38,061 nucleotides of DNA from Pseudomonadota bacterium. Lineage in GTDB: Bacteria > Bdellovibrionota > Bacteriovoracia > Bacteriovoracales > Bacteriovoracaceae. The notes under the pieces are model-generated. The model ran no database searches, was not told where the DNA came from, and saw only the letters and a program-made list of their open reading frames with translations. The translations under genes and the position numbers were made by a program. Numbering within the stretch: the stretch's first letter is position 1; the number at the start of each line of letters is the position of its first letter. Location: contig JAIXOY010000119.1 in the NCBI GenBank assembly GCA_027486525.1, positions 1 to 38,061 on the forward strand, written 5' to 3'. Positions 19,986 to 25,200 of the stretch are shown one piece after another.

Positions 19986-20636
19986 ATGAAAACATGGTTT
20001 ATTTGCATGGCCCTAAGCCTCTCGGCGTATGCCCAAAATTTTCCCTCTGATTGGTGGCGTCCCGTCCCTCGTGGAGACGCCTCGAGCTGGGAAATTCTCC
20101 CGCAAGACGCGCTCCCGGGGGAAGTGATCCTTTCTAAACGCACCGAGTTGGGCATTTTCAGCAATTTTGGAGCGACTCCCTTTATCCTCGATGGCCTTAC
20201 CTACGCCTCCGTTGAAGGTCTCTGGCAGGCCATGAAATACCCAGACCCGAGTCTCACGAATGATCCTCGCCATGCCATCACAGACTGGCCCCACACACGC
20301 GCCGAAGTCATGGCCATGACCGGCTTCGAAGCCAAGGCTGCCGGCACGGCCGCCGGGGACATCTACAAGAAATTCAAACTCAAAAACATCTCTTACGGCA
20401 CGCAGACTTTTGACTACAAAGATTTCGCCGCCGGCTCGGCATTGCATCTCGACATTATTTCTCGCGCCCTCAAAGCGAAGCTCGAGCAGAATCCTGGGCT
20501 GTGGGAACTGCTAGAAAAAACCCAGTGCCTCCGCCTGCGTCCCGATCACAAACCGGGCGAGAATGATCCGCCAGCTTACAAGTACTACGACCTCTTCATG
20601 CAATTCCGTCAGGAGCGCGTTCCTTGTTCATTCTAG
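19986..20636 (+). CDS. Exported NADAR-domain protein (YbiA-like)
   Basis: A 216-aa protein with a clear signal peptide (MKTWFICMALSLSAYA, cut before QN) followed by a NADAR/DUF1768 domain. Family signs are IFSNFGATPF (57-66), the Glu77/Lys84 segment SVEGLWQAMKY, the helix GFEAKAAG and a C-terminal LFMQFR. NADAR proteins cleave N-glycosidic bonds: E. coli YbiA acts on riboflavin-pathway intermediates, and others remove ADP-ribose from nucleic acid. All that I know of act in the cytosol, so export is unusual. The usual DxWGxG stretch near the C-terminus is replaced by a PDHKPGEND segment. It overlaps the next gene by 13 bp and is translated with it. Confidence 0.8.
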   Translation: MKTWFICMALSLSAYAQNFPSDWWRPVPRGDASSWEILPQDALPGEVILSKRTELGIFSNFGATPFILDGLTYASVEGLWQAMKYPDPSLTNDPRHAITDWPHTRAEVMAMTGFEAKAAGTAAGDIYKKFKLKNISYGTQTFDYKDFAAGSALHLDIISRALKAKLEQNPGLWELLEKTQCLRLRPDHKPGENDPPAYKYYDLFMQFRQERVPCSF

Positions 20637-22489
20637 CCTTCATTTTTTCACTGATGGTCCAAGCCTCGACCCCAGCGCAGCTGCGTCCGATCGCCGTCAA
20701 TGAACAGATCGTTCGCCGTGACCTGGCGCTCATCCTTAAAGATGCTCACCTCCCGACGGATCTCTTGGGCGTGGTGTGGAGCGAAGGAAAGAGCAACACG
20801 GTTCGTTTCAATTGCCAGAAAAAACCCTGGGCCCTGCAGGTCACAGCTGAGAGTGAAGAAAAGTCTGCGACGTTTTATCGCGGTCTTCGGGGATTAGGAT
20901 TTCTCTTCCCTCACCCACGCTGGCAAGTCTCTCCGACCCTCAACGACATCAAACGCCAGTGCGGCAAGACCTTCAACTGGAAGCCGACACTTAAGCATCG
21001 CGGGCTCCACCTCCACACGCTTCACCCTAATGAATGGGTCCGCGGCTTCCTCATGGATCGCACCGACGTTGCCAATGAGATCGTGCGCTGGAGTGCTCGC
21101 AATGGTCAGAACCTCATCGACGTGAGTCTTGTCCGTATTCCGCTTGAAAAGATTCAGAGTAATTTCAAAGCTCCGTTTCAGCTCGCGCGCGACCTGGGCG
21201 TGCATACCGGCGTCTCTCTCGGCGTAGCGCTGCAGCAGCAAAACAGCTACAAGCTCCTAACGCTTTGGCAGGCGATCACCGGATTTGGGTCGGATGAGGC
21301 CCTCGAGCGCGAGCTCGAGAAACTCATCGACGCCGTCGACACCAGCTTCATCGTCCTCGAAGCCGGCACCAGTGAGTTCACTTCCACGGATCCCGAAAGC
21401 ACCATCAAGTGGCTGAATCACGCCGACGCCATCGCCCGCAAACACAATCGAGCGATCTTCACCAAGGTGCATGTCTCCAGCAACCAACAAAACACAAAAT
21501 GGGGCAACTACAATTTCTTGCCCTCCTTTGCTGCCAAGTCCGTGGGTGTGCTTCCCCACACGGTGATGTTCTACGGCTTGCTTGATCCGAAAGCGCCGAT
21601 GTATGGCAACAAAGACTTCCACGGCATTCGTAAGTTCATGGAGAAAGAATCTCAACAGCGTCCGGCCTGGTATTACCCCGAAACGGGTTACTGGGTGGCG
21701 ATGGACGCCGATATCCCTCTGCTTCTCACCGATTATCTGCGGACCCGCGCCGAAGATTTAAAGTGGTTGCATGAGAACAAGATGGACGGTCAGCTGATTT
21801 TCTCCACGGGCCACGGCATGGGTGGTTGGCTCTACGATTGGACACAGGCCCTGTTGATCGATGAAGAACTGAAGTTCGATCCCTACATCGGCCTCACTCT
21901 TCTAGGTGAAGACCGCGGCGCTTGGGAAAAGATCTTTGCCCACCAAAAATATCATTTCAAAGACGCCGGCGTGATCCCCATGATCTCGGCCGCCAACCTC
22001 CAGGACGAACTCTCCAGCACCCATCGCATCCATGAGCGCCACACCATTAAAGAAGTGGCCGGTGACGAGAAACTGCGAGAAGCAGAGATCCGGCTCCTCA
22101 CTTCTGCCTCGGCCGCCTGGCCTGACACCACCGCTGTGAAAGAAGCTGAACTTGCCCGGCTGTTACTTGTCACACGCCTGCGCGTGGAACAGGCGCTGCA
22201 GCTCCGCCTGGCCATGCGCGAAGACGACAAGCGGGCCGAGTCCTTAGAGAACGCGAAACTTCTGCGGGAACAGGCCTCGCGCCTGCTCTCCGAATCGCGC
22301 AATGATCAACGCAACTACGCCGATCTTGGCGTGATGGATGTCTGGGCGAATCCGACGAGCTATCAGTTTGGCTACATCTACCCATCAGCAAGTTTGTACT
22401 GGTGGGCGCGGGAAGAGCGCATGGTTCGTGACGACAGCTACTGGCCTTTCACTGAAAATATATATGATATCTGGGACATCCTCTTCTAA
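20624..22489 (+). CDS. Large secreted protein, probable glycoside-hydrolase-like barrel
   Basis: A 621-aa protein. The start is TTG at 20624, 13 bp inside the NADAR gene, with AGGAG just upstream and a signal peptide (MFILAFIFSLMVQAS). Residues about 40-110 resemble the N-terminal alpha/beta domain that precedes the barrel in several glycosidases (YRGLRGLGFLFPHPRWQ). KHRGLHLHTLHPNEW (about 125-140) then looks like the first strand of a (beta/alpha)8 barrel, as in GH67/GH20/DUF4838-type proteins. The C-terminal ~150 residues are helical and rich in charged residues. I cannot name a family or catalytic acids with confidence. The translational coupling suggests it works with the exported NADAR protein. 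Confidence 0.72.
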   Translation: MFILAFIFSLMVQASTPAQLRPIAVNEQIVRRDLALILKDAHLPTDLLGVVWSEGKSNTVRFNCQKKPWALQVTAESEEKSATFYRGLRGLGFLFPHPRWQVSPTLNDIKRQCGKTFNWKPTLKHRGLHLHTLHPNEWVRGFLMDRTDVANEIVRWSARNGQNLIDVSLVRIPLEKIQSNFKAPFQLARDLGVHTGVSLGVALQQQNSYKLLTLWQAITGFGSDEALERELEKLIDAVDTSFIVLEAGTSEFTSTDPESTIKWLNHADAIARKHNRAIFTKVHVSSNQQNTKWGNYNFLPSFAAKSVGVLPHTVMFYGLLDPKAPMYGNKDFHGIRKFMEKESQQRPAWYYPETGYWVAMDADIPLLLTDYLRTRAEDLKWLHENKMDGQLIFSTGHGMGGWLYDWTQALLIDEELKFDPYIGLTLLGEDRGAWEKIFAHQKYHFKDAGVIPMISAANLQDELSSTHRIHERHTIKEVAGDEKLREAEIRLLTSASAAWPDTTAVKEAELARLLLVTRLRVEQALQLRLAMREDDKRAESLENAKLLREQASRLLSESRNDQRNYADLGVMDVWANPTSYQFGYIYPSASLYWWAREERMVRDDSYWPFTENIYDIWDILF

Positions 22490-23511: not shown

Positions 23512-23918
23512 CCCCCTTCTCTTACCCCCTGACCGTGCAACCCGCGGACATCGACGCTCTCAACCACGTGAACAACGAAGTCTATCTGAAGTGGTTGCTG
23601 GAGGCGGCCGGCGCCCATTCTGTTTCTCTGGGTTTCGGCATGGAGAAATTTCTCAGTGACGGTGCGTGCTTCGTGGTTCGTCGCCATGAGATCGAGTATC
23701 TCGCCTCGGCCTACCTCGGAGAAGAGCTGGTGGTGGAAACCTGGGTGAAAGACATGGAGGCCGTTCGCTCCAAGCGCGCGTATCGCATTCGTCGACTCAA
23801 AGATGACAAGATCTTGGTCACGGCGGAAACGCTGTGGGTCTACATCAACATGAAGACCGGACGGCCCACAGAGATTCCTGCATCCATGCAGGAAGCCTAT
23901 CTAAAATCTAATAGCTAG
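23508..23918 (+). CDS. 4HBT acyl-CoA thioesterase (YbgC/FadM-like)
   Basis: A 136-aa single-hotdog protein. The conserved N-terminal motif QPADIDALNHVNNEVYLKWL contains the catalytic Asp and the HVNN loop of the YbgC/FadM thioesterases, which release free acid from acyl-CoA. Length and fold order are typical. It overlaps the HxlR gene by ATGA and so shares its transcript. Its last 11 bases overlap the convergent transglutaminase-like gene. Confidence 0.88.
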   Translation: MTPFSYPLTVQPADIDALNHVNNEVYLKWLLEAAGAHSVSLGFGMEKFLSDGACFVVRRHEIEYLASAYLGEELVVETWVKDMEAVRSKRAYRIRRLKDDKILVTAETLWVYINMKTGRPTEIPASMQEAYLKSNS

Positions 23919-25200
23919 ATTGCTGGTACAAGTAGTCGACCAACGCTTTCAGCGGAACACCGCGGGCATTGCTGCGTTGAGCGGCCCGACGCCACGATGG
24001 TGTCCCCAGACGACTCACGTCATTGGCAACCTGATCACCCTCTGAGCTCGGGCGATCTTGGTACTCTGGACGCCACAAGAAGTCCGGGTGCTTACCGTCG
24101 CGCCATTCACCACCGAGCACGCGGAAATCAGCAGCAAGCTCAAGGTCGTAGGTGAAAGTTAAGACTTTGCGATCCGGTGTGTGAACTCCGGCCGGTTGGC
24201 CATCGCCGAATGTCACGATAGAGCGGACACCGACGACCCACACGGTCTCAGCGGAGCGGTAGTTGGCGTAACGAAGACGGCCCAAGCGTGAGCGCTCGCG
24301 GATCACATTTCTAAAACGGGTCGACTTGCGGTTGTAATCGGCCACATCAAAAAACTCGAACCGAAAATCCATCACCGGCTTGTTCCATACCTGCGTGCCA
24401 TTCTCCGCATCGATGATGAACGATTCACCGCGAGCTGCGATCATGTGCGAGAGCACCAAGTGCCAATCGGCGGGGTTCACGTCAAAACACTTCGGCGGCA
24501 GCACGCGGCCATCCGGATCAACTTCTGGCTCGCTCTCATTGCAGCGCCAGCCTGCGTAGACCGTGCGGTAACTCCCATTGGCCCAGTAAAGTGAGCCAAG
24601 GGCCTTGATGTCATCCACAGAAAAGAGAATCTGTCCTTGCGGGCCATTCACGTACACCGGACGAACCGGCTGGCTTAAGAACAAACTCGCCGGCGACCAA
24701 CCATGGCAGATGCCCTGCCAGGTCGCGACTGTTGCGGTGGTCACGTACTCACGACGACCTAGGTTCCACTGATGAGCCGTAAGCGAGCCGGCCTCATTGG
24801 GAGCGAAGCCAGTGACGAGATCGTACTTTTCCGCGGGAGAAAGAAGGTCGCGGTAGCTCCGATCCCACGGGAAGTTTTGTACGTAGCCCTCAGCTGCGCC
24901 CCAGTCTGTGCGTGGGAATGCGGGATCGGCCCAACGAGCAGCAAGACCGCCCTGGTATTTTGGCCAAAAATGACCTGACCACGCTTGCACGCGAGAAGCA
25001 CCGCTTGTGAGCCCTTGGGCCTCTAAATTGGCGAGGGAGGTTTCAAGTGTCGCTACACCCACAAACTGTTCCGCCATGCCTACGTCGCGGGCCATTTTAT
25101 CGGTGGTTGCGCCTCGAGAGATGATGTCGGCGCGCTGGTGAGAGACGAGGTTCCAGTCAGGTTGAGCAAAAGCAGTAGCCACGGCCAAGAGCACGAACAT
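23908..25200 (-). CDS. Secreted transglutaminase-like protein (TGase-elicitor family)
   Basis: A 430-aa protein with a signal peptide (MFVLLAVATAFA). It resembles the oomycete transglutaminase-elicitor family (PF16683 type): WSGHFWPKYQGGLAARW (74-90), the active-site Cys165 in GICHGWSPASLF, a His in ADWHLVL (about 247) and an Asp in FIIDAENGTQVWNKPV (about 264) that would complete a Cys-His-Asp triad. Such enzymes cross-link glutamine and lysine side chains between proteins. A secreted cross-linker could act on prey or host surfaces or on the cell's own envelope. The ribosome site TGGAG lies eight bases before the ATG. The family call rests on motif memory, not a search. Confidence 0.72.
   Translation of the reverse strand: MFVLLAVATAFAQPDWNLVSHQRADIISRGATTDKMARDVGMAEQFVGVATLETSLANLEAQGLTSGASRVQAWSGHFWPKYQGGLAARWADPAFPRTDWGAAEGYVQNFPWDRSYRDLLSPAEKYDLVTGFAPNEAGSLTAHQWNLGRREYVTTATVATWQGICHGWSPASLFLSQPVRPVYVNGPQGQILFSVDDIKALGSLYWANGSYRTVYAGWRCNESEPEVDPDGRVLPPKCFDVNPADWHLVLSHMIAARGESFIIDAENGTQVWNKPVMDFRFEFFDVADYNRKSTRFRNVIRERSRLGRLRYANYRSAETVWVVGVRSIVTFGDGQPAGVHTPDRKVLTFTYDLELAADFRVLGGEWRDGKHPDFLWRPEYQDRPSSEGDQVANDVSRLGTPSWRRAAQRSNARGVPLKALVDYLYQQSSY

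Follow-up and report, generated by a model that had tools for sequence, protein, structure and literature searches.

The locus analyzed here raises the question of what a protein of the NADAR fold may do outside the cytoplasm. NADARs hydrolyse ribosyl N-glycosidic bonds and have been studied as intracellular enzymes, in riboflavin metabolism, in DNA/RNA de-ADP-ribosylation and in toxin-antitoxin systems. The window, i.e. the whole stretch of 38,061 nucleotides that was analyzed, belongs to a draft genome of 3.49 Mb, in which it is contig C260, and encodes P0001, a 216-residue NADAR-fold protein with predicted export, assigned on profile, fold and family evidence (positions 19986-20636, forward strand, as are all features of P0001 and P0002 given below). 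On its 5' side lie a divergent penicillin amidase gene and then an M48 peptidase gene, and the downstream genes of the window include those of a thioesterase-family protein, an HxlR regulator, a second thioesterase-family protein and a TGase-elicitor protein. The NADAR of the Bacteriovoracaceae MAG D1_Bin_38 (Bdellovibrionota) is 79% identical to P0001.

Fold and catalytic residues of P0001

P0001 starts with a short Sec-type leader, MKTWFICMALSLSAYA (19986-20033), with a cleavage site judged by eye to precede Gln17 (AYA-Q). The mature protein then opens with an N-terminal extension (FPSDWW...SWEILPQDA...GEVILSKR; 20034-20141) that alignments indicate to be family-specific. Past the leader are found the motifs IFSNFGATPF and SVEGLWQAMK, the latter carrying Glu77 (20214-20216) and Lys84 (20235-20237). 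Both residues are invariant, Lys84 across 24 relatives, and they align with E72 and K79 of L001, a canonical NADAR, and correspond to E88 and K95 of the E. coli C7 NADAR and to E43 and K50 of PnNADAR (PMC11543638). Mutation of E88 and K95 impairs the activity of the C7 protein (PMC11543638). After the last strand, the alignment of relatives displays an invariant Asp187-His188 pair (20544-20549), at a position where Glu marks the YbiA subfamily, Asp the BC4488 subfamily and His the phage subfamily (PMC11125620). His188, invariant in the family, aligns with the His of the phage NADARs, while neither the last-strand Glu nor the WGD motif of YbiA was found in alignments of the P0001 family, which has Asp-His instead. 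Since the WGDGG motif of YbiA is missing, the substrate of this family may differ.

Taken alone, P0001 returns two Pfam hits, both below cut-off: PF08010 (Phage_30_3, the phage NADAR family; E 1.8e-6) and PF08719 (E 0.045), and a PF08719 search of the window's genome did not pick it up. Among 24 family members, PF08010 matches 23 and PF08719 matches 17, with a best E of 6.8e-6. Profile-profile alignment by hhalign links the family both to canonical NADARs (98.2% probability, E 2.9e-14) and to phage gp30.3 (99.1% probability, E 1.2e-18). The AF2 model of P0001 (pLDDT 93, 23-sequence alignment) retrieves E. coli YbiA (2b3w; E 7.7e-5, probability 1.00) and PnNADAR bound to ADP-ribose (8bau; probability 0.94) in a Foldseek search that gave no other credible match, and the TM values against known NADAR structures are only ~0.36-0.56. 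In a phylogenetic tree, the P0001 family and the phage proteins are split from canonical NADARs with 100/100 support, the long phage branch sitting inside or beside the P0001 family. The NADAR domain read from the letters of P0001 by the first-pass annotation is thus borne out by profile searches across the family, profile-profile alignment and AF2/Foldseek, and the assignment of P0001 as a divergent member of the NADAR fold is supported by sequence and model. By these sequence comparisons, its family is nearest to the phage gp30.3-type NADARs.

The export signal across the family

Homologues were collected by an alignment-query search of genomes, a search with the single P0001 sequence as query having returned no relatives, and the best 80 of 152 relatives were examined for an uncharged 10-residue stretch near a possible start with a mean Kyte-Doolittle value of at least 1.8. 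This hydrophobicity rule holds for 76 of these 80 named homologues and for none of 30 canonical NADARs of Planctomycetota taken as a control. Four homologues fail the rule, among them L116, which begins close to the end of its contig, and L066 and L049, which have starts that are hard to place. The same rule is passed by 342 of 868 neighbouring ORFs (39%) and therefore cannot tell signal peptides and membrane anchors apart. The contrast between family and control leaders is nevertheless strong at the sequence level, and the leader first noticed in P0001 is real by this measure: its conservation indicates that predicted export is a trait of the family. Many homologues carry a lipobox in place of a Sec-type leader, such as LTSGCS (L070), LAGCVR (L058) and VVGCSA (L099). 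The homologues, nearly all from draft metagenome bins, span Bdellovibrionota, Acidobacteriota, Verrucomicrobiota, Planctomycetota and Sumerlaeota, and a P0001-type NADAR is present in 20 of the 59 relatives' genomes.

A second lineage bears leaders as well. Among the canonical NADARs of Bdellovibrionota, 14 of 16 have one, mostly with a lipobox, and 12 of these form one group in the tree (94/81). L001 (contig C229:5568-5984), in the window's own genome, is such a leader-bearing YbiA-type protein, others being L118-L130. Some architectures are more elaborate: in L063 (331-1860, the same gene as L011), a leader-bearing NADAR is fused to a C-terminal domain of ~290 residues that has no Pfam match and contains a possibly cysteine-hydrolase-like motif (SIGHVAVEL...GGGCSAFG). 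In L096 (853-2076) and L118, one of them of the P0001-type family and the other a canonical NADAR, the leader is followed by a further N-terminal region of ~180-300 residues and then by the NADAR domain.

The main NADAR papers searched, the founding survey of 2012 (de Souza and Aravind) excepted, mention no exported NADAR, and the search returned no paper linking Bdellovibrio to YbiA. For ARPP, another protein related to ADP-ribose, an exported pair has been described (PMC9503650). P0001 belongs to a real, predicted exported group within a known enzyme fold, undescribed as far as the open literature was searched. Since two NADAR lineages have export signals, and one of them extends to several phyla, a substrate outside the cytoplasm is implied, one that seemingly has not been sought so far.

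Gene neighbours in related loci

In 12 Bdellovibrionota loci, a leader-bearing EEP nuclease (Exo_endo_phos_3, PF19580, E 5e-29) is encoded directly upstream of the NADAR, with a gap of -22 to 34 bp. Directly downstream of the NADAR, 9 loci encode a type I phosphodiesterase/nucleotide pyrophosphatase (NPP; PF01663, E 1.9e-84), mostly with a lipobox. A leader-bearing UDG-superfamily-domain protein (PF03167, E 8e-9) is encoded within three genes of the NADAR in 8 loci. In L087, the gene of an S1/P1 nuclease (PF02265, E 7.5e-53) overlaps that of the NADAR. The enzymes differ but share a theme, although repeats among close relatives partly reflect shared descent and the neighbour counts are therefore not independent events. 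The nuclease and NPP neighbours are confined to part of Bdellovibrionota and do not lie beside P0001 in the window, and the nucleotide theme was not seen among the few neighbours sampled in other phyla. Elsewhere in the window's genome, contig C206 carries the gene of the EEP nuclease (40% identity), and C225 that of a UDG-domain homologue (L142:64-2439).

The UDG-domain protein comprises 635-866 residues (L048:4697-6601, L052, L056, L060, L062, L069, L080 and L087), and its predicted extracytoplasmic site is unexpected for a UDG fold. Other neighbours are of another kind. In Pseudobdellovibrio-type loci (L082, L084, L086, L093, L104 and L106), a leader-bearing trypsin-like protease is encoded directly upstream of the NADAR. 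The TGase_elicitor (PF16683) protein of the window (23908-25200, reverse strand) is predicted to be exported, and its homologues lie near NADAR genes in L038, L039 and several other loci.

A putative N-glycosidase outside the cytoplasm

The reading we favour, to which we give a probability of about one half, is that P0001 acts as an extracytoplasmic N-glycosidase in nucleic-acid and nucleotide turnover, within the family that by sequence is nearest the phage gp30.3-type. What we infer here, namely the activity, substrate and final location of P0001 and its tie to predation, would run as follows. P0001, whether secreted, periplasmic or lipid-anchored, most likely keeps the N-glycosidase chemistry of NADARs (Glu77, Lys84 and the last-strand Asp187/His188), and would hydrolyse, outside the cytoplasm, the ribosyl N-glycosidic bonds of nucleotide-like compounds released from nucleic acids and cofactors of foreign origin or of prey. 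Candidate substrates are ADP-ribosylated bases, NAD or ADP-ribose derivatives, and phosphoribosyl N-glycosides, and the enzyme may act in concert with nucleases and nucleotide pyrophosphatases that are exported as well. A putative N-glycosidase outside the cytoplasm and beside nucleases and NPP suggests a stepwise breakdown for uptake, the targets of which could be nucleic acids, NAD-type cofactors and ADP-ribosyl adducts. That P0001 would act on nucleotide or ADP-ribosyl compounds beyond the cytosol, as already proposed from the window alone, fits the leader-bearing nuclease and NPP neighbours predicted in related loci, and these conserved neighbours turn a guess on the substrate into a testable one. 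In DNA and RNA, ADP-ribosylated guanosine is freed of its ADP-ribose by the phage T4 NADAR and by YbiA (PMC11125620, PMC11833690).

In a broader and more tentative form, the multi-phylum NADARs could act extracytoplasmically and, in predatory Bdellovibrionota, could belong to an exported set for nucleic-acid digestion that strips bases or ADP-ribose from prey-derived nucleotides, in a phylum with predicted exported NADARs of two separate lineages. Members of this set would be an EEP or S1/P1 nuclease, the UDG-domain protein, the NADAR and the nucleotide pyrophosphatase. B. bacteriovorus secretes nucleases into its prey (PMC7925074), and a predation proteome is reported to include an upregulated secreted nuclease (PMC12546842). 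Attack on another cell, one of the purposes that the first-pass annotation considered, may be a use of P0001. The P0001 family is present also in phyla that are not known to prey in this way, which speaks for a broader role in scavenging. The question bears on how bacterial predators dismantle the nucleic acids and cofactors of their prey.

An exported anti-toxin, by which P0001 would de-ADP-ribosylate nucleic acids or guanine-containing targets in the envelope or medium against toxins of competitors or prey, seems unlikely. NADARs do undo the ADP-ribosylation of guanine that DarT1 and the secreted ScARP carry out (PMC11543638, PMC11833690), many homologues look like lipoproteins, and the patchy distribution among the 59 relatives is usual in defence genes; however, no ART toxin or toxin-antitoxin partner was seen beside any neighbour scanned, PADLOC gave P0001 no match, and nucleic-acid targets are cytosolic, beyond the protection of an exported enzyme. 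A phage-defence reading was likewise rejected on the PADLOC result. Another improbable alternative is that the fold was co-opted outside the cell for the non-catalytic binding or sensing of nucleotide-like ligands or cell-wall sugars. The lost WGDGG motif and the family-specific N-terminal extension would suit such a change, but Glu77, Lys84, Asp187 and His188 do not vary among the aligned sequences, as expected of an enzyme.

The overlapping gene P0002

The first-pass annotation had placed a second leader-bearing gene 13 nt inside the first, behind an AGGAG site, and this arrangement holds: P0002 (621 residues; 20624-22489) reads from a TTG at 20624, the stop codon of the NADAR gene reaches to 20636, and the AGGAG ribosome-binding site (20611-20615) is inside the NADAR gene. 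The leader of P0002, MFILAFIFSLMVQA, is hydrophobic, and the prediction is of an exported, glycoside-hydrolase-like TIM-barrel protein. It returned no Pfam match and no credible PDB match by sequence or profile, and no CAZy family is assigned. Its model (mean pLDDT 80, 11 sequences) comprises an α/β domain, an (α/β)8 TIM barrel and a helical tail, and Foldseek gives GH20C as the best match (E 2.4e-10, probability 1.00), with GH115, GH67 and GH89. Glu251 (21374-21376), in the loop that follows barrel strand 4, and Glu353 (21680-21682), at the end of barrel strand 7, are invariant in the 11 sequences and appear to be placed as in retaining glycosidases, as candidate acid/base and candidate nucleophile, respectively, in a model that is weak at residues 315-320 and 355-362 and with no GH-family sequence match. 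The barrel-like partner with a signal peptide that had been noted thus stands as a hydrophobic leader and a predicted TIM barrel, but not its pairing with the NADAR as a general feature.

The TTG start and the overlap are kept in G003 and G004, the overlap being 13-19 nt across three genomes. P0001 retains 79% identity in G004 and 64% in G003, and P0002 83% and 61%, respectively, and at these identities both frames are under protein-level constraint. The two genes are adjacent only in G000, G003 and G004, all of one genus. In G001 and G002, of the same genus, the amidase and P0002 genes are adjacent (~69 nt apart, measured in G001), and no P0001-type NADAR was found in these drafts, which are 82-85% complete and in which the amidase-P0002 junction itself is seen. 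A P0002 homologue without such a NADAR is also present in G008 and G055, counter to the co-occurrence that was to be checked, and a P0002-type gene is found in 5 of the 20 NADAR-bearing relatives versus 9 of 59 overall. The coupling is therefore real within a single genus without being a defining trait, the functional pair that had been suggested is not supported, and a conserved two-gene system is rejected.

These data also make it improbable, a little more so than the alternatives above, that NADAR and barrel serve one glycan or nucleotide-sugar pathway, along the lines of the first-pass annotation. Such a pathway would account for the conserved TTG start and overlap, for the predicted export of both proteins and for the GH20, GH67, GH89 and GH115 resemblance of the barrel, but the pair is missing outside the genus, the amidase-barrel junction does without the NADAR, and few NADAR-bearing relatives have the barrel gene. 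By its model, P0002 is a separate predicted exported GH-like barrel, with the same N-terminal α/β domain and (α/β)8 barrel as GH20, GH67, GH89 and GH115, from which it differs in sharing 9-12% identity.

Comparison with known systems

The YbiA subfamily (E. coli YbiA, PnNADAR) has the fold and the catalytic Glu and Lys in common with the P0001 family, but differs by its last-strand Glu, its YWGD motif and its lack of a leader, and is split from it in the tree (100/100). A control of riboflavin-pathway overflow, as proposed for YbiA, with P0001 acting before export or in the cytosol, is very improbable: a weak TIGR02464 match (E 0.0028, 17.9 bits versus a cut-off of 73.7) is set against a leader kept across phyla, pathway intermediates that are cytosolic and a sequence closer to the phage type than to YbiA. 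The canonical NADAR lipoproteins of Bdellovibrionota (L001 and relatives) have leaders too, in the same phylum and even the same genome as P0001, but form a separate, YbiA-type lineage. The DarT1-NADAR antitoxins (BC4488 subfamily) share the fold and the Glu/Lys pair, and their last-strand Asp is the BC4488 marker (PMC11125620); unlike them, P0001 is predicted to be exported, and no DarT or other ART gene was found among the window neighbours or the sampled neighbours of relatives.

The best profile match of the P0001 family is with the phage gp30.3-type NADARs (T4 gp30.3, PF08010). The phage proteins have no leader and, like YbiA, no counterpart of the ~36-residue N-terminal extension (WW...SWEILPQ...SKR), and the P0001 family has, unlike them, an Asp just before the last-strand His. 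Both groups have in common the SNF...DG...S.EG(F/L).Q pattern, the AK..G motif and the last-strand His itself.
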